From Altererythrobacter sp. (GTDB lineage: Bacteria; Pseudomonadota; Alphaproteobacteria; Sphingomonadales; Sphingomonadaceae), in NCBI GenBank assembly GCA_023260985.1, contig JALRKY010000080.1, positions 1 through 64,000 on the forward strand: a stretch of DNA of 64,000 nt. Direction: 5' to 3'. Below are positions 1-62,516 of the stretch, in pieces. The notes beneath the pieces are model-generated. The model saw nothing but the letters and a program-made list of their open reading frames with translations. It had not been told where the DNA came from and did no database searches. How positions within the stretch are numbered: position 1 is the first letter of the stretch; each line of letters begins with the position of its first letter. Both the position numbers and the translations under genes were made by a program.

Positions 1-1
1 C

Positions 2-598
2 TCGTATGAGCTTGTGTCGGACAATCTACTCGATCTGTCGCACGTCCAGTATCTCCATCCCGTCCTTACCCCGGAATCGGACCCCGATAGCTATTGGGAA
101 AATGATATCGTCCAGGACGGCGATGTGGTCACAACTACTTACAACGTGAGGCAAATCAAACCTACGCCATTCATCCGCCTGAATTGGCCGGACGCACCTG
201 AAAAAGTCGACAATATTGCCGGTGTCCGTTGGGAACCGCCCGCAGCGATGCTTTTGAAGGTGCACATGGAGTCAGCCTCTCCGGGCGACAATCGTTCTAT
301 GAAGACCTGGGGCGCGCATCTAGTTACCCCGGAAACCGAAACAACCTGCCACTACTTTTGGTCGTTCGCGCGCAATTTCCGCCACGAGGACCAAGAGTTC
401 AGCGACACATTGCGGGATACGATCAACTCGGTTTTCACCAATGAAGATGGTTGGATCATCGGTGAAATCCAGGCGAACATGGGGGGTGAGACCGACCTTA
501 TGTCACTGCGTCCAGTGGTCCTTCCAACGGACGAACCCGCTATTCGTGCCCGAAGGATCGTCAGAAAGCTGCTCAAGCAAGAGACGGCAGTTCATTAG
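2..598 (+). CDS. Rieske-type aromatic ring-hydroxylating oxygenase, C-terminal part (VanA-like); 5' end outside window
   Basis: Frame open from base 2 (SYELVSDNLLDLSHVQYLHP...), with the N-L-DLSH..-H motif of the oxygenase catalytic domain; listed ORF start at 14 is internal. Confidence 0.7.
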   Translation, partial: SYELVSDNLLDLSHVQYLHPVLTPESDPDSYWENDIVQDGDVVTTTYNVRQIKPTPFIRLNWPDAPEKVDNIAGVRWEPPAAMLLKVHMESASPGDNRSMKTWGAHLVTPETETTCHYFWSFARNFRHEDQEFSDTLRDTINSVFTNEDGWIIGEIQANMGGETDLMSLRPVVLPTDEPAIRARRIVRKLLKQETAVH

Positions 599-703
599 AA
601 ACGCTGACAACACGGACCACTCAGTGGGGGCCGGTCAATCGACCGCACAGCGCAATCATCAATATCCCACCTTAAAGGGGCACGTCATTTGCGAATAAAA
701 TGA

Positions 704-732
704 CGCCGCCCAATTGGGCGGCGCCTTTATTT
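704..732. terminator. Rho-independent terminator, possibly bidirectional
   Basis: GCCGCCC-AATT-GGGCGGC stem followed by GCCTTTATTT, between convergent genes. Confidence 0.65.
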
Positions 733-752
733 GCGACTGTGACTTTGTGAGA

Positions 753-1526
753 TTAGCGGTTTGCACCTCTTGCCAAGGTAGCGTTGTATACACGCTCGCT
801 GTTACATTCCATTATAGGATTAAACGTTTGGAACGCACGCATCCATCCACCTTCGTTAGCTATTATGTCCTCGAAGCGGCCCTTCTCTTGCATGTCAGGA
901 AACCATGTGGAGATTTTAACACCGTATTCATTATTAGGGTCTTCCCCGGCCCCTGGCAGATGGTAAGCAACGGTCGCCTTTACCTCGTTCTCGTCGAGAT
1001 ATTCAAACCACGATTTCTGTACGGCGAATAAATCAAGCACAGATTTTCCATCCTTGAAGGTGCAATCAGTAAAGTCCACGACCGCCGTGCTGCTTGGCGC
1101 AGTAGGCTGTGGCCGCACAATCATGCTGGTGCTGAGTGATTGGGAGCCGCAGGTCCAAACCTCATTGAATTCAGCTAGAAGTTCTCCGCCATTGGCGACC
1201 CAGTCGTCCTTGGCTTGACCCATTGCTTCAGCACTGGGGGATGCACCAAACCAAAACGCGGCCTTCCCGCCATTTAACTCGGAGTGATAATGAGGCGTTA
1301 GGACCCAAGCAAAATAATTGTTGAGGCCTCGCTCATTTGACCAGCTGTTCCATTTGGAAGCCACATCCATCAGGTCCACAAGAGATTTGCCGTCATTATA
1401 CTGACAGGCGATCGTCTCAACTTTGCCCCAGCTAGGTGCGGACATGTGGTCGTCTGCGGATACTGGTGCTGCTAACAGTGTTGCAGCCATAGCCGAAGCC
1501 GCCAAAAGATTTATTTTGAGTTTCAT
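753..1526 (-). CDS. secreted protein of unknown function with two internal homologous repeats
   Basis: Signal peptide MKLKINLLAASAMAATLLAAPVSA; repeats start CQYNDGKSLVDL and CTFKDGKSVLDL. Confidence 0.7.
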   Translation of the reverse strand: MKLKINLLAASAMAATLLAAPVSADDHMSAPSWGKVETIACQYNDGKSLVDLMDVASKWNSWSNERGLNNYFAWVLTPHYHSELNGGKAAFWFGASPSAEAMGQAKDDWVANGGELLAEFNEVWTCGSQSLSTSMIVRPQPTAPSSTAVVDFTDCTFKDGKSVLDLFAVQKSWFEYLDENEVKATVAYHLPGAGEDPNNEYGVKISTWFPDMQEKGRFEDIIANEGGWMRAFQTFNPIMECNSERVYNATLARGANR

Positions 1527-1561
1527 ATAAGTATACCCCCCAAAGATTCTCGAAATGCAAA

Positions 1562-2176
1562 CTAATTTTGAAAATCGTAGTACCCATCCAAAGGGATCAT
1601 TAAGTGATCGAAACCGGTGCCCTTAAACATCAAATAGGGCGCGCCGCTGGTAAAATCAGTAGTAGTATTCGCGATAGTGGAAACGTCTGCAGGCATCATC
1701 ATAAGATGGGGACCGCTAACGATCCAATGCGCCGCATTAGCTTCTTCGATAGACATAGCAGTGTGGTCAAAGTTGTCTGCACCCATGTCGCCATGGAGCA
1801 TCCACATCCAGCCATCGGTCTCTAAGGCAGGTTGTTCGCCTGCCATATAGGCCTTCATCCAAGCTTGAGCCGCTTCATCCGAGCAAGCCGGGACGGCCTC
1901 CCGAACAGTTGCATACCCAGTGACAGGCATTGTCATTGGACTAGCTGATTGGCATGTCCATCCGTTGGTGCCTTCTTGCAAAACCGTTCCATCAGGTGCG
2001 ATAACAGTTGCGTTTTCTCCGATGAATGAAGGAGCAGCTGTAGTAAGCGCCCATAAAATCCATTCACTTTCATTGTGCGCAACAGCGGGTTCCCCCGTAT
2101 CTACAGGAGCTTCTGCATTGTTAGCAGAGCACGCGGCAAGCAGGGTTGCGCTAAACGCAATGATTGTCTTTTTCAT
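1562..2176 (-). CDS. putative lipoprotein of unknown function
   Basis: Start MKKTIIAFSATLLAACS with lipobox LAAC; ORF extends to 2206 but this ATG fits better. Confidence 0.65.
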   Translation of the reverse strand: MKKTIIAFSATLLAACSANNAEAPVDTGEPAVAHNESEWILWALTTAAPSFIGENATVIAPDGTVLQEGTNGWTCQSASPMTMPVTGYATVREAVPACSDEAAQAWMKAYMAGEQPALETDGWMWMLHGDMGADNFDHTAMSIEEANAAHWIVSGPHLMMMPADVSTIANTTTDFTSGAPYLMFKGTGFDHLMIPLDGYYDFQN

Positions 2177-2266
2177 ACGAGATCTCCCTGACTTTCTATA
2201 TCCCAATATTTTTCATGAAATGAAAATTATTTGGAAATCGATTTTTGTGAAAATGTGCTGATCTAA

Positions 2267-2701
2267 TCAGAGTTTTAATTCGGATACGTCAAATCTCGCT
2301 GTCTTATTGATGAAATCTATTTCACCAATAGCCAAATTAAGTTTACCATTTGATACCGCATCGAAAGTATAAAGCTTAAATACCGTTCCAGATTTCACCC
2401 AAACACCTTGGAGGGTGGCCGTTACTACCTCCTCTCCATTTTGCGTCCAAGCGAACCCTGTGAATTCGCCCATGCTGGCTAAATCCTGTTTGCTCGTAAA
2501 ATCATATGACAAATAAACGCGGCCATAGGGACCTGCCTCTCCAGACAGCGAGGCTTTGAATGTTTCTGCATCAACATCCACAGCATCAATTTCGAATTCA
2601 GCCACGAATTGCTCATTAACATCAAATGATCGCGCCAAGGCCGCAGAGCCCGACATTGCAGTTAAAAGCAAAGTTGCCAATATAACTGATAGAAAACGCA
2701 T
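2267..2701 (-). CDS. secreted protein of unknown function
   Basis: 144 aa ORF with signal peptide MRFLSVILATLLLTAMSGSAALA. Confidence 0.65.
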   Translation of the reverse strand: MRFLSVILATLLLTAMSGSAALARSFDVNEQFVAEFEIDAVDVDAETFKASLSGEAGPYGRVYLSYDFTSKQDLASMGEFTGFAWTQNGEEVVTATLQGVWVKSGTVFKLYTFDAVSNGKLNLAIGEIDFINKTARFDVSELKL

Positions 2702-2910
2702 TTGACGCTCCTTCGTTTAAGATATTGAAATTTAAAAATATATCTTGTTTGATTTCAAAATTGATTCGAGAGGCTAAGAGATAAATATTTCATGTCAATA
2801 ACAATTTTATGTTCACTTTTTGTTTGGAGCGCGTCCACAACTGAGATCATTCGGGCCAGCAAAGCTTCGCGAACTGATTTTATGTTAAGTGGGTGGCTGA
2901 AGCTGGGTCG

Positions 2911-3375
2911 TTAGCGGACTTTGGGTTTTCTGCCTCTCGTTCTTTGTGATCCGGACACTACCGTATCGAGAGAGAACATCAGGTCCTCCGCCTCGTGAAA
3001 AAATACAGACATCGCGTGCCGCTCAGCCTTGGCCTCAAGCGTTTCTTGTCCGTGTCTATACTGCAAATGGTTTGCGCCCTTCCTGATCGTCTCAGGCTTT
3101 CTAGCGCCGTGGTATCGGCAGGTCTTACACCCCCATGCAGCGGGGTTCTTGCAGCGTTCTTTGGTACGCTTGGATTTGGCCTCACGACGCGCAGTTCCTA
3201 AAAGCCCGCGGCTCACTTTCCACAACGTATGCCCCGCCGTTAACCCGCCCTCCCCCGGGGGGGGGTAAAGGACGATAGGGTGGTGGAATAGATCGCCTTC
3301 TTCGGTGAGCGAGACCTCAAATCTCCAGGCGGTTAGACGGCTCGCCGAAGCGCAAACAACGGCTGACTGCGACAC
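2911..3375 (-). CDS. small protein with CRYHGARKPETIR...YRHGQETLEAKAER motif (HGG/HGA-type, often near mobile elements)
   Basis: ORF with CKNPAAWGCKTCRYHGARKPETIRKGANHLQYRHGQETLEAKAER; start uncertain (a G9 run lies in the N-terminal part). Confidence 0.45.
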   Translation of the reverse strand: MSQSAVVCASASRLTAWRFEVSLTEEGDLFHHPIVLYPPPGEGGLTAGHTLWKVSRGLLGTARREAKSKRTKERCKNPAAWGCKTCRYHGARKPETIRKGANHLQYRHGQETLEAKAERHAMSVFFHEAEDLMFSLDTVVSGSQRTRGRKPKVR

Positions 3376-3435
3376 CTTATTTTACAGGATTTTTACAGGA
3401 AGAAGGCCGGTCTAGCGCCTAACTAATTGAAAAAT

Positions 3436-3512
<77 letters not shown>

Positions 3513-3859
3513 GTGGCGCGGTCAGCGACAAGCGAGCGGCGCGCTTAGCAAAGCACCGTCCCACCTGCCAGCCGAAAATCGCGCGCCCTTGCCGGTCGCG
3601 GTTAACGCAGCAGCCCCGCGCATTAGGGATTTGGCAATTCTGGCCCGCTACTCCGGCAGGGCCTCGTCGCGCTGCGCACGATCCGTGCGCGGGGCCAGGA
3701 GACCAACGCCCCGGCGCTGGCGCTTTGGCGCGAATTCCATGCCCTGCGCTCGGCGCTGCTCAGCCTGCCAATCGATGCCCAGGCTGAGGCCGAAACCGCA
3801 AATCCGCAGGTCGCCTCCTGAAGCTTGACCGTGTTCGTGATCTGTTCCAGTCTGGCCCG

Positions 3860-4363
3860 ATGCCGACGCCCCTGATCACCAATCCCGATTCGCCACCATC
3901 GACAGTGTACGACGCGGCAGCGGTCGCGCGCGGCGTCGGGCGGCTGTTCGCGCGCAACGACATCTGGTGCCTCACCGAAATGCCGCTGCGTAATGGCCGC
4001 CGCGCCGATCTGATGGGAGTCGATGCCAAGGGGCAGATCGTAATCGTGGAGATCAAGGTCGCGCGCGGCGATTTGCTGGGCGATACGAAATGGGGCGAAT
4101 ATCTCGATTTCTGCGACCGGTTCTTCTGGGCCCTGCCCCCCTCGCTCGACCGCGCCCCGCTGGAAGGGGAGGCATTCCGCCCCGATTGCTGCGGCGTGAT
4201 CGTGGCCGATGGCTATGATGCGGAGATATTGCGCCCGGCCCCGCTGCAGCCGCTCAACGCTGCACGTCGGAACAAGGAGTTGCAGCGGCTAGCCCGTGCT
4301 GCGCTGCGCCGCCATGCCGGGCTGATCGATCCGCTCTGCGCGAAACTGTCTGGCGCGCAATAA
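3860..4363 (+). CDS. mmcB: MmcB family DNA repair protein (PD-(D/E)XK-like)
   Basis: 167 aa; RADLMGVDAKGQIVIVEIKVARGDLLGDTKWGEY..CDRFFWA typical of MmcB. Confidence 0.85.
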   Translation: MPTPLITNPDSPPSTVYDAAAVARGVGRLFARNDIWCLTEMPLRNGRRADLMGVDAKGQIVIVEIKVARGDLLGDTKWGEYLDFCDRFFWALPPSLDRAPLEGEAFRPDCCGVIVADGYDAEILRPAPLQPLNAARRNKELQRLARAALRRHAGLIDPLCAKLSGAQ

Positions 4364-57780: not shown

Positions 57781-58361
57781 GATTCCAACTCCCCTAGCTC
57801 GCGCAGAGCTGTGAGCACGCCGAGCAGCGGCATGCCGAGCACGGTGAAGTGGTCACCTTCGATCGCGTCGAACAATTGCACACCCAGCCCTTCGATACGG
57901 AACACGCCAACGCAGTGGCTGACTTTGGGCCATTCGGCGTCGAGATATCGCTCGATGAATCCGTCGCTCAGTTCGCGCACATGCAGCCGTGCAAGCGAAG
58001 CCTCGCTCCATTCGCAAGTATCGTCGCGCACCAATGCCGCGGCGCTATGCAGTTCCATCACCTTGCCCGAAAAGAAATGCAGGTGCTCTGCCGCCCGCGC
58101 GCGGCTTTCAGGCTTGTCGAAACGCCGCCCGCCACACATCACCAGGCTGTCGCTGCCGATTACCAACCGCCCAGGATGCGTGCTTGCCACTGCTTGTGCC
58201 TTTGCGACACTCAACGCTTCGGCGATCTCGCCTGGAGCGCACTCCACCAACCCAGCTTCCAACACTCGCTCATCGAGTGATGCAGGGATCGCTTCATGTG
58301 CAATACCTGCTACATCGAGCATGGCGCGACGCGACGCGCTCTTCGAAGCGAGCAAGATCAT
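57777..58361 (-). CDS. Maf family nucleotide pyrophosphatase
   Basis: ILLASKSASRRAMLDVAGI...LVIGSDSLV. Confidence 0.94.
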   Translation of the reverse strand: MILLASKSASRRAMLDVAGIAHEAIPASLDERVLEAGLVECAPGEIAEALSVAKAQAVASTHPGRLVIGSDSLVMCGGRRFDKPESRARAAEHLHFFSGKVMELHSAAALVRDDTCEWSEASLARLHVRELSDGFIERYLDAEWPKVSHCVGVFRIEGLGVQLFDAIEGDHFTVLGMPLLGVLTALRELGELES

Positions 58362-59206
58362 ATTGCGCCTTCACCCTCTTTGTCGCCAGGTCTCGGCCTA
58401 TCGGTGCGCTCCTGCATGAAGCGGATCACTGCGGCAGCGGTTTCCTCGATCGATCGGCGCGTTACGTCGATCACTGGCCAACCATTATCGGCAAACATGC
58501 GGCGCGCAAACTGCACTTCCTCGCGCACTTTTTCGCCATCGACATAGGAAGTCTCGGTGCCTTCATTGAGCGACAACAGCCGGTTGCGCCGCACCTGCAC
58601 CAGCCGTTCGGGGGCGGTGGTAAGCCCCACCACGAGTGGGCGACGGAGCCCGAACAGCGTTGGTGGTGGTGGAGATTCCATTACCAACGGGATATTCGCA
58701 ACCTTGTATCCGCGATTGGCGAGATAGATGCTGGTCGGCGTCTTCGAACTGCGCGATACGCCAGCGAGTACGATATCCGCCTCTTCCCAATCTTCCCATC
58801 CTACGCCGTCATCATGCGCGATAGTATAATGAATTGCTTCGACTCTGCGGAAATAGGCCTCGTCCATCAGGTGCTGGCGGCCGGGCCTACCATGCGCTTC
58901 CTCGCCGAGCTGGACTTCGAGCGCCGCCGTGACCGCATCGAGCACCGGTACAGCGGGTAGGCCAAGCTGGCGGCAATGCTCCTCCAGCCTTGCGCGGGTT
59001 TCCGGATTCACGAGCGTGAACAGAACTAGGCCAGGGCTGTTTGTGAGTGACGGCACGATCCGGTCGAGATGTTGGCGTGAACGCACCATCGGCCAGAAAT
59101 GGCGCACGACGTCTGGATTGTCGAATTGCGCGAGCGCCGCCTTGGCGATCATCTCGAGCGTTTCTCCGGTCGAGTCCGAAACGAGGTGGAGGTGCATGCG
59201 TTGCAT
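58358..59206 (-). CDS. ppsR: pyruvate, water dikinase regulatory protein (kinase/pyrophosphorylase)
   Basis: LHLVSDSTGETLEMIAKAALAQF, DIVLAGVSRSSKTPTSIYLANRGYKVANIPLV. Confidence 0.94.
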   Translation of the reverse strand: MQRMHLHLVSDSTGETLEMIAKAALAQFDNPDVVRHFWPMVRSRQHLDRIVPSLTNSPGLVLFTLVNPETRARLEEHCRQLGLPAVPVLDAVTAALEVQLGEEAHGRPGRQHLMDEAYFRRVEAIHYTIAHDDGVGWEDWEEADIVLAGVSRSSKTPTSIYLANRGYKVANIPLVMESPPPPTLFGLRRPLVVGLTTAPERLVQVRRNRLLSLNEGTETSYVDGEKVREEVQFARRMFADNGWPVIDVTRRSIEETAAAVIRFMQERTDRPRPGDKEGEGAI

Positions 59207-59238
59207 TGCGTGGTAGTTGCATCCTTGCTGGGAATGCC

Positions 59239-59531
59239 TGTGGAGAATGCAAGGCATAAACCACGGGAGAGGCCTGCCGACAAGTTTGGGGAGAGATTCC
59301 ATGCCCGCTATCAGCTTTATCGCCAGTGAGTTTGTAGACATCGAGCGTCGCTATCAACAGGCTGGGGATAGCGCGAATAAGTTTGACTCGACCTAGGTAA
59401 TCCCACGATTCGCAAGCCGGACGGTACTTTGCTCCGCGGGAAAAATCGGGCAGGAGCCACTTGTCCCCGAAATCCACAAGGCCAACAGACTCCTAAATCC
59501 TTTTATAAATATAATTATATTGATTGGATAA
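59239..59531. other. candidate chromosomal replication origin (oriC)
   Basis: ppsR-hemE gap with DnaA-box-like motifs (TGTGGAGAA 59239, TGGGGATAG 59363, AAATCCACA 59470, ATTGGATAA 59523) and AT-rich tract TTTTATAAATATAATTATATTGATT 59501-59525. Confidence 0.6.
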
Positions 59532-59537
59532 GACATC

Positions 59538-60557
59538 ATGCCCGGCTTGCTTCTCGACACTTTGCGCGGTCAAAAGGGTGATCGGGTACCCATATGGCTG
59601 ATGCGCCAGGCAGGGCGTTACCTTTCAGAATATCGCGCATTGCGTGCCGAAAAGGGCGGATTCCTCGAACTCGTCTACGATAGCGAAGCCGCGGCGGAGA
59701 TCACGATCCAACCATTGCGCCGGTTCGGCTTCGACGGGGCGATCCTGTTCTCGGATATCCTGATCGTGCCGCATGCGATGGGACAGGGGCTCGAATTCCT
59801 CGCGGGCGAAGGCCCCAAGCTGTCGCCACCGCTACTAGACGCGCGATTGGAGGATTTCACCGCGCAACCCGAACGGTTCGAAGCGATCTATGAAACCGTG
59901 CGGCTGTGCCGGGCGCAGCTCGGCGAAAGCGTGACCATGCTCGGTTTCGCGGGCAGCCCCTGGACCGTCGCGACCTATATGGTGGCGGGCGAAGGCAGCC
60001 GCGACCAACATGACACGCGCGAGTTGGCCTATGTCGATCCGGCGCGGTTCGAGGAAATTATCGGCGCCATCGTCGACGTGTCGATAACTTATCTGCGCGG
60101 GCAGATCGATGCTGGGGCCGAAGCAGTGCAATTGTTCGACAGTTGGGCCGGCAGTCTCGCACCAGACCAATTCGACCGCTGGGTGATTGCGCCCAATGCC
60201 GCGATCACCGCCGCGCTCAAGCAATCTCATCCGGGTACGCCGGTGATCGGCTTTCCCAAGGGCGCGGGAGCCAAGCTTGCTGCCTATGCCAATGAGACCG
60301 GGGTTGACGCAGTGGGATTGGATGAGACGGTCGATCCCGAACGGGCGGATCGCGAATTGCCCAAGGGCATGCCGGTGCAAGGTAATCTTGATCCACTGCT
60401 GCTGATGGCGGGCGGTGCGCCCCTGGTCGATCGCGCGCGCTTCATCCTCAGGACTTTCGCCGATCGCCCGCATGTGTTCAATCTGGGCCACGGGATCGGA
60501 CAGTTCACGCCGATCAAGCATGTCGACCAGCTCGTTGCGGCCGTGCGCGGACAGTGA
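59538..60557 (+). CDS. hemE: uroporphyrinogen decarboxylase
   Basis: RVPIWLMRQAGRYLSEYR, FSDILIVPHAMGQGLEF, NLGHGIGQFTPIKHV. Confidence 0.97.
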   Translation: MPGLLLDTLRGQKGDRVPIWLMRQAGRYLSEYRALRAEKGGFLELVYDSEAAAEITIQPLRRFGFDGAILFSDILIVPHAMGQGLEFLAGEGPKLSPPLLDARLEDFTAQPERFEAIYETVRLCRAQLGESVTMLGFAGSPWTVATYMVAGEGSRDQHDTRELAYVDPARFEEIIGAIVDVSITYLRGQIDAGAEAVQLFDSWAGSLAPDQFDRWVIAPNAAITAALKQSHPGTPVIGFPKGAGAKLAAYANETGVDAVGLDETVDPERADRELPKGMPVQGNLDPLLLMAGGAPLVDRARFILRTFADRPHVFNLGHGIGQFTPIKHVDQLVAAVRGQ

Positions 60558-60627
60558 TGATTGTGGCGGGGGATGACGCGGTGGTGAACTGCGCCTACAT
60601 AAGCGAGCGATGCAGGACGTCATCGCC

Positions 60628-61065
60628 ATGACCTATCTTTGGCTCAAGGCTGGCCACATCATTTTCGTGGTCTTCTGGATGGCGGGCCTTTTCATGCTCC
60701 CGCGGCAACTTATCTATGTCCACCCGGCGCAACCCGGTTCGGAAGAGGAAGTACTATGGGTTCACCGCATGGGCCTGTTGCGCAAGGTCATCCTCACGCC
60801 GAGCTTGGTGGTGGTGTGGGTGCTTGGCCTGCTCATGGCGGCCGAATTAGGCCTGTTTGCGGCCGCGCCGGGATTGGGCTGGCTTCATGCCAAGCTGCTC
60901 TTCGTGCTGCTGCTCACTGGCTATCACGGCTTCATGGTCGCGCAATCGAAGAAGGTTGCCGCCGGAGAGCGGCCGCTCAGCGAAAAACAACTGCGCATGC
61001 TGGGCGAAGCGCCCGGCCTGCTGCTGGCGATTATCGTGGTGCTGGCGGTGCTCCGCCCTTTCTGA
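60628..61065 (+). CDS. hemJ: CopD family / protoporphyrinogen IX oxidase HemJ
   Basis: YLWLKAGHIIFVVFWMAGLFMLPRQLIYV; follows hemE; possible start 60610. Confidence 0.85.
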   Translation: MTYLWLKAGHIIFVVFWMAGLFMLPRQLIYVHPAQPGSEEEVLWVHRMGLLRKVILTPSLVVVWVLGLLMAAELGLFAAAPGLGWLHAKLLFVLLLTGYHGFMVAQSKKVAAGERPLSEKQLRMLGEAPGLLLAIIVVLAVLRPF

Positions 61066-61250
61066 ACCATTTGCTCGGCGAACAATCGGCGATTGACGGC
61101 GGTTTCCGCGGGTCGTATTTTGAAATCCTCTAACCGGCATGAGGCTTCGCATTCGGTGAAGCCAAGGTCTGCTTTCTCCAAGCCCATATGCCTCACTCAA
61201 AAGACGAGGCGACGACCTGTAGGCCAATCCAGAGACGGACATATATTGCA

Positions 61251-62516
61251 ATGCATCTCAAAGACTTGAAACGTAAGACACCGGCCGAACTAGTCGCCAT
61301 GGCTGAAGAGTTGGGTGTCGAAGGCGCATCGACCATGCGCCGGCAGGATCTGCTGTTCAGCATCCTGCGCGAACTTGCTGAAGACGAGGAATATGAAGAG
61401 AAGATCATGGGTGTCGGCACCATCGAGGTGCTGCAGGACGGATTTGGCTTCCTGCGCTCGCCTGAGGCGAACTATCTCGCCGGGCCCGACGACATTTATG
61501 TCTCGCCCAACCAGATCCGAAAATGGGGCCTGAGGACTGGCGACACGGTTGAAGGTGAGATCCGCGCCCCGCGCGACGGTGAGCGCTATTTTGCCCTCAC
61601 AAGCCTCACGAGCGTCAATTTTGACGATCCGGAGGCGGTGCGCCACCGCACCAATTTCGACAACCTCACACCGCTCTATCCGGACAAGAAGCTGACTCTT
61701 GATCCGGTCGACCCGACCGTGAAGGACAGGAGCGCGCGGGTGATCGACATCATCGCGCCGCAGGGCAAGGGCCAGCGCGCGCTGATCGTGGCGCCGCCGC
61801 GCACCGGCAAGACCGTTCTGCTGCAGAACATCGCCAAGGCGATTACCGACAATCACCCCGAGGTGTTCCTGATCGTGCTCCTGGTCGACGAACGACCCGA
61901 GGAAGTCACCGACATGCAGCGCAGCGTGAAGGGTGAGGTTATTTCCTCAACCTTCGACGAGCCTGCGACGCGCCACGTGCAGGTCGCCGAAATGGTGATC
62001 GAAAAAGCCAAGCGCCTGGTCGAACACAAGCATGATGTGGTGATCCTCCTTGACTCGATCACGCGCCTCGGCCGTGCCTATAACACCGTGGTTCCGAGCT
62101 CAGGCAAGGTACTGACCGGCGGTGTCGACGCCAATGCCCTGCAGCGCCCCAAGCGTTTCTTTGGCGCAGCGCGCAACATCGAGGAAGGCGGTTCTCTTTC
62201 GATCATCGCCACCGCGCTGATCGATACCGGCAGCCGCATGGACGAAGTGATCTTTGAAGAGTTCAAGGGCACCGGCAACAGCGAAATCGTGCTCGACCGC
62301 AAGGTCGCAGACAAGCGCATCTTCCCGGCGCTCGATGTCGGCAAGTCCGGCACCCGCAAGGAAGAACTGCTGGTGGGCAAGGACAATCTGTCGAAGATGT
62401 GGGTGCTGCGCCGCATCCTCATGCAGATGGGCACCATCGATGCGATGGAATTCCTGCTCGATAAGATGAAAGATTCGAAGTCGAACGAAGACTTCTTTGC
62501 GACGATGAACCAGTAA
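61251..62516 (+). CDS. rho: transcription termination factor Rho
   Basis: [72 protein letters not shown]. Confidence 0.98.

Follow-up and report, generated by a model that had tools for sequence, protein, structure and literature searches.

The ppsR-hemE intergenic gap as the predicted chromosomal replication origin of an Erythrobacteraceae bacterium

In the 64,000-nucleotide stretch analyzed here (the window), which is part of contig 21 of a draft Erythrobacteraceae assembly (2.07 Mb, 82 contigs, 95% complete), the divergent genes ppsR and hemE are separated by an unusually long gap, and the question raised by this locus was whether the chromosome starts its replication there. An origin cluster of this kind has been described for Caulobacter and Rickettsia, as cited in PMC4741004, and an earlier note on this DNA had read the gap as oriC. 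Our analysis supported that reading through the skew in relatives, the parS sites nearby, the conservation of the gap and the fixed positions of its DnaA boxes. With a probability of about 95%, we predict that chromosome replication in this bacterium starts in the gap at 59207-59537, a prediction based on gene order, on where the skew minimum lies in relatives, on the enrichment of DnaA boxes and the conservation found, and on the adjoining parS.

The divergent gap of about 330 bp that had been claimed proved to be exactly 331 bp, bounded by the ppsR start codon, which ends at 59206 on the minus strand and is kept in the alignment, and by the hemE ATG at 59538. The gap directly adjoined hemE within a conserved cluster, as in a hemE-type origin. 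Profile searches recovered the flanking genes that had been named, with hemE (59538-60557, plus strand), a hemJ-like gene (60610-61065, plus strand, below the model's cut-off) and rho (61188-62516, plus strand) on one side, and a ppsR-family regulator (pyruvate, phosphate dikinase/PEP synthase regulator; 58358-59206, minus strand), a Maf-like gene, aroE, coaE and dnaQ on the other. The HemJ and Maf scores fell under the curated cut-offs, but the matches covered almost the entire length. Altererythrobacter and Erythrobacter were the named relatives in a tree of hemE. The GC content of the gap was 50%, making it more AT-rich than the window. At the far end of the window, positions 1-4000 had a GC content of 52%, lower than the roughly 60-66% found over most of the remainder; this stretch could be a foreign insert.

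All four DnaA-box-like motifs quoted in the earlier note were found in the gap, and three of them occupied sites kept across 25 genomes of the genus, but the fourth, ATTGGATAA, was not conserved, and a conserved box, CTATCAACA at 59351-59359, had been missed. The box closest to ppsR, TGTGGAGAA (59239-59247, minus strand, one mismatch), lies at about -299 from hemE, and its TGTGGA was invariant in the 25 genomes. The remaining conserved DnaA-like boxes each have two mismatches: CTATCAACA (plus strand, -187), which reads TTATCGACA or TTGTCGACA in relatives; TGGGGATAG (59363-59371, minus strand, -175), which reads TGGGGATAA in many relatives; and AAATCCACA (59470-59478, plus strand, -68), which opens a conserved block running to 59493. 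We rejected ATTGGATAA (59523-59531, two mismatches) as a DnaA box, as it was common to the nearest relatives only and sits in the ribosome-binding region of hemE, where the other relatives in the 25-genome alignment carry ribosome-binding-like sequence.

The gap contained six 9-mers with at most two mismatches from TTATCCACA, whereas 331-bp stretches of the window averaged 0.41, and 0.24% of them matched the count in the gap. Part of the excess reflects composition, given the higher AT content of the gap. Perfect copies of TTATCCACA were absent from the gap, and the genome as a whole had seven exact hits, no more than the reversed control. The comparison of 95 sphingomonad gaps was a stronger test than the count within the window. 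These gaps held 180 boxes with no more than one mismatch, where shuffling predicted 4.8, and the boxes piled up relative to hemE at -315 to -286 (reverse), -255 to -181 (forward), -195 to -166 (reverse) and -75 to -61 (forward), positions matched by the boxes at -299, -187, -175 and -68 in this window. The cluster thus exceeded chance and was kept in relatives, as in a hemE-type origin, with boxes that were weak and never perfect.

A comparison of the gap among relatives, which the earlier note had asked for, showed strong conservation, with DnaA boxes that keep their places. In the alignment of 25 same-genus genomes, 20% of the gap columns were invariant; the adjoining hemE had no invariant column among 73 fourfold sites, and 3.5% among all its third positions. 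Conserved blocks comprised the four boxes, the elements GCATAAACCACGGGA and GACAAG, a GANTC site at 59407, TCCACAAGGCCAACAGACTCC (59473-59493) and an AT-rich tract. This tract (59494-59530), the presumed unwinding element, directly follows the last conserved box; as had been pointed out, it is AT-rich, with 90% AT over 30 bp at 59494, a value reached at just 7 of 63,971 positions, in two places in the window. Read from its sequence, it represents the AT-rich putative unwinding element that stands beside a DnaA box in a hemE-type origin.

The element GCATAAACCACGGGA (59254-59268) was nearly invariant in the 25 genomes, and the conserved GACAAG (59279-59284) reads CTTGTC on the ppsR strand, where it is a possible -35 element at fixed spacing from GCATAAACCACGGGA. 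In some Novosphingobium-type gaps, GCATAAACCACGGGA was likewise followed by GACAAG at fixed spacing, and the pattern used did not find the pair in Sphingomonas gaps. Together, the two elements may represent the ppsR promoter or an origin-binding site. The gap also contained a CcrM-type GANTC site, GATTC at 59407-59411, whose column was kept in 25 of 25 genomes, with further GANTC sites at 59295, 59385 and 59488, the last of these kept in 19 of 25. The universal site suggests, at the level of sequence, that control linked to methylation matters at this origin. CtrA sites of the form TTAA-N7-TTAA were absent from the gap, so CtrA control in the style of Caulobacter was not supported; their absence denies the CtrA-controlled subtype, not the hemE-type origin. 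It is conceivable, though on balance unlikely, that origins in this group have control elements undescribed for hemE-type origins, consisting of the nearly invariant GCATAAACCACGGGA and the universal GANTC without CtrA. If this were true, initiation control would be linked to methylation and not to CtrA.

As the genome itself is an 82-contig draft, the chromosomal position of the locus was assessed by GC skew, the check proposed in the earlier note, in three complete same-genus chromosomes (G011, G021 and G003), sampled in 20-kb stretches; within the window, skew was too weak for use, with 4-kb values within about 0.06 either way. As in a hemE-type origin, hemE stood at the cumulative-skew minimum in all three, at distances of 30 kb (G011), 14 kb (G021) and 130 kb (G003) and at heights above the minimum of 1.3%, 0.5% and 0.8% of the range, respectively. 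The contrast between chromosome halves was significant in each (p = 6.5e-07, 0.0046 and 0.0049), with stretches that are not fully independent. These values bear on the alternative that dnaA marks the replication start, as it does in many bacteria, and that the hemE locus is a mere look-alike. In the complete relatives dnaA lies 409-452 kb from hemE. Along this interval the skew valley of G011, with dnaA at a height of 6.7% of the range, is flat and by itself separates the two loci poorly; fine contiguous skew over 1.60-1.88 Mb of that chromosome was flat at about 1.62-1.80 Mb and did not pinpoint the site. In G021 and G003, dnaA stood at heights of 16% and 34% of the range, far above hemE, and noise-resampled minima fell nearer hemE than dnaA in 71% (G011), 93% (G021) and 99% (G003) of cases. 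The parS sites also cluster at hemE and not at dnaA. On skew and parS position we rejected dnaA as the origin, an explanation that we consider the least probable of all.

The second alternative holds that this long gap serves only as the divergent promoter region of ppsR and hemE, its conserved words being sites for transcription regulators. Promoter-like pairs were indeed conserved, with CTTGTC and TTTATG 18 bp apart on the ppsR strand and TTGAC on the hemE strand, so the gap surely holds promoters as well. Promoters leave unexplained the DnaA boxes fixed across 95 gaps, the skew minimum, the AT-rich tract and the parS cluster, and as a full account this explanation is highly improbable, if marginally less so than an origin at dnaA. 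What counts against oriC itself is that the gap lacks a perfect DnaA box, that skew is weak across the genus and that the sampled minimum of G003 lies 130 kb off hemE. The origin reading nevertheless remains the one that we prefer.

The segregation genes lay where a hemE-type origin would have parS and parAB nearby. The genes mnmE, mnmG, rsmG, parA and parB, named from sequence and order (ParB additionally by profile), lie past the window, 5-10.6 kb downstream of the hemE start, and together with three parS sites occupy contig positions 64.5-70.2 kb. These three were the only parS palindromes in the whole assembly (contig 21, 65835-68341), 6.3-8.8 kb from the gap, and the same arrangement was present in most of the relatives with listed positions.

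We infer DnaA binding, melting of the AT tract, initiation and any role of methylation at the ppsR-hemE gap from these sequence features. DnaA would bind the four weak boxes at about -299, -187, -175 and -68 relative to hemE, the AT-rich tract at 59494-59530 just upstream of hemE would then melt, and the helicase and replisome would be loaded at that site. From its place 6-9 kb away on the hemE side, the ParB-parS centromere would then separate the new origins, and adenine methylation could act on the origin or on a promoter via the GANTC site kept in every aligned genome.

A separate observation concerned the genus at large. With its three parS sites, the genome studied here is not a many-parS case, whereas the complete same-genus genomes G003 and G021 carried about 60 parS palindromes around the chromosome (at most two mismatches), not 3-5. 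With the stricter pattern GTTNCACGTGNAAC, counts ranged from 0 to 77 across 114 genomes of the genus, and from 1 to 11 per genome outside it (an order sample of 201 genomes from 63 genera). Many-parS genomes include G003, G021, G010, G016, G024 and others (L111-L126, L209-L228, L089-L108). Of the 25 genomes on the hemE tree, the 12 with at least eight parS formed one group (100/99 support), with which Erythrobacter fulvus, Erythrobacter sp. WG and a Porphyrobacter bin also grouped. In G003, 55 scattered sites were evenly distributed between origin and terminus (13, 10, 11, 11 and 10 per fifth). By a simple gene caller, 22 of the 27 scattered G003 sites examined were intergenic, 12 of these between converging genes, and no longer repeat common to their flanks was seen by eye. 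G003 encoded one ParB_N protein, and G021 had one strong and five weaker matches. In each species the scattered sites and the origin cluster shared one letter variant (TTTCACGTGAAA in G003, TTCCACGTGGAA in G021), which points to one reader protein. ParB sites seem to have spread specifically within this many-parS clade, in a layout similar to that of the scattered Noc sites in Bacillus. A review puts parS at no more than 20-23 sites, near the origin, and our literature search turned up no description of a clade like this, which does not prove that none has been published. The clade is more surprising than the oriC finding itself and bears on the question of why clustering at the origin is the norm for parS sites.

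The kind of origin described here is nothing new: the arrangement is standard for the group, making the result ordinary, yet it is now well supported. The analysis places the origin of a species known from a draft genome alone and provides a conserved map of the Erythrobacter origin, with box positions, unwinding tract and a GANTC site in every aligned genome.

Compared with known systems, the predicted origin resembles Cori of Caulobacter crescentus (see also PMC8959179) in its hemE-side position, its several mostly weak DnaA boxes and its AT-rich region, and differs from it in that Cori has five CtrA sites and this gap has none of the form sought. In Hyphomonas neptunium, the replication start was measured near hemE (PMC6650430), with parAB about 7 kb from hemE and parS beside it, an arrangement like the present one; there, the position came from marker frequency and skew gave no clear answer, whereas here it is a matter of inference. 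There is also a likeness to Sphingopyxis granuli TFA and other Sphingomonadaceae, for which PMC4741004, with DoriC, predicts oriC beside hemE and, in Sphingopyxis, a putative unwinding element and DnaA boxes that are conserved. Conserved gene order, hemE-side position, boxes and unwinding element are shared with that prediction; the genus differs and the boxes are weaker here, and the tests of skew, parS and conservation are added by the present analysis.
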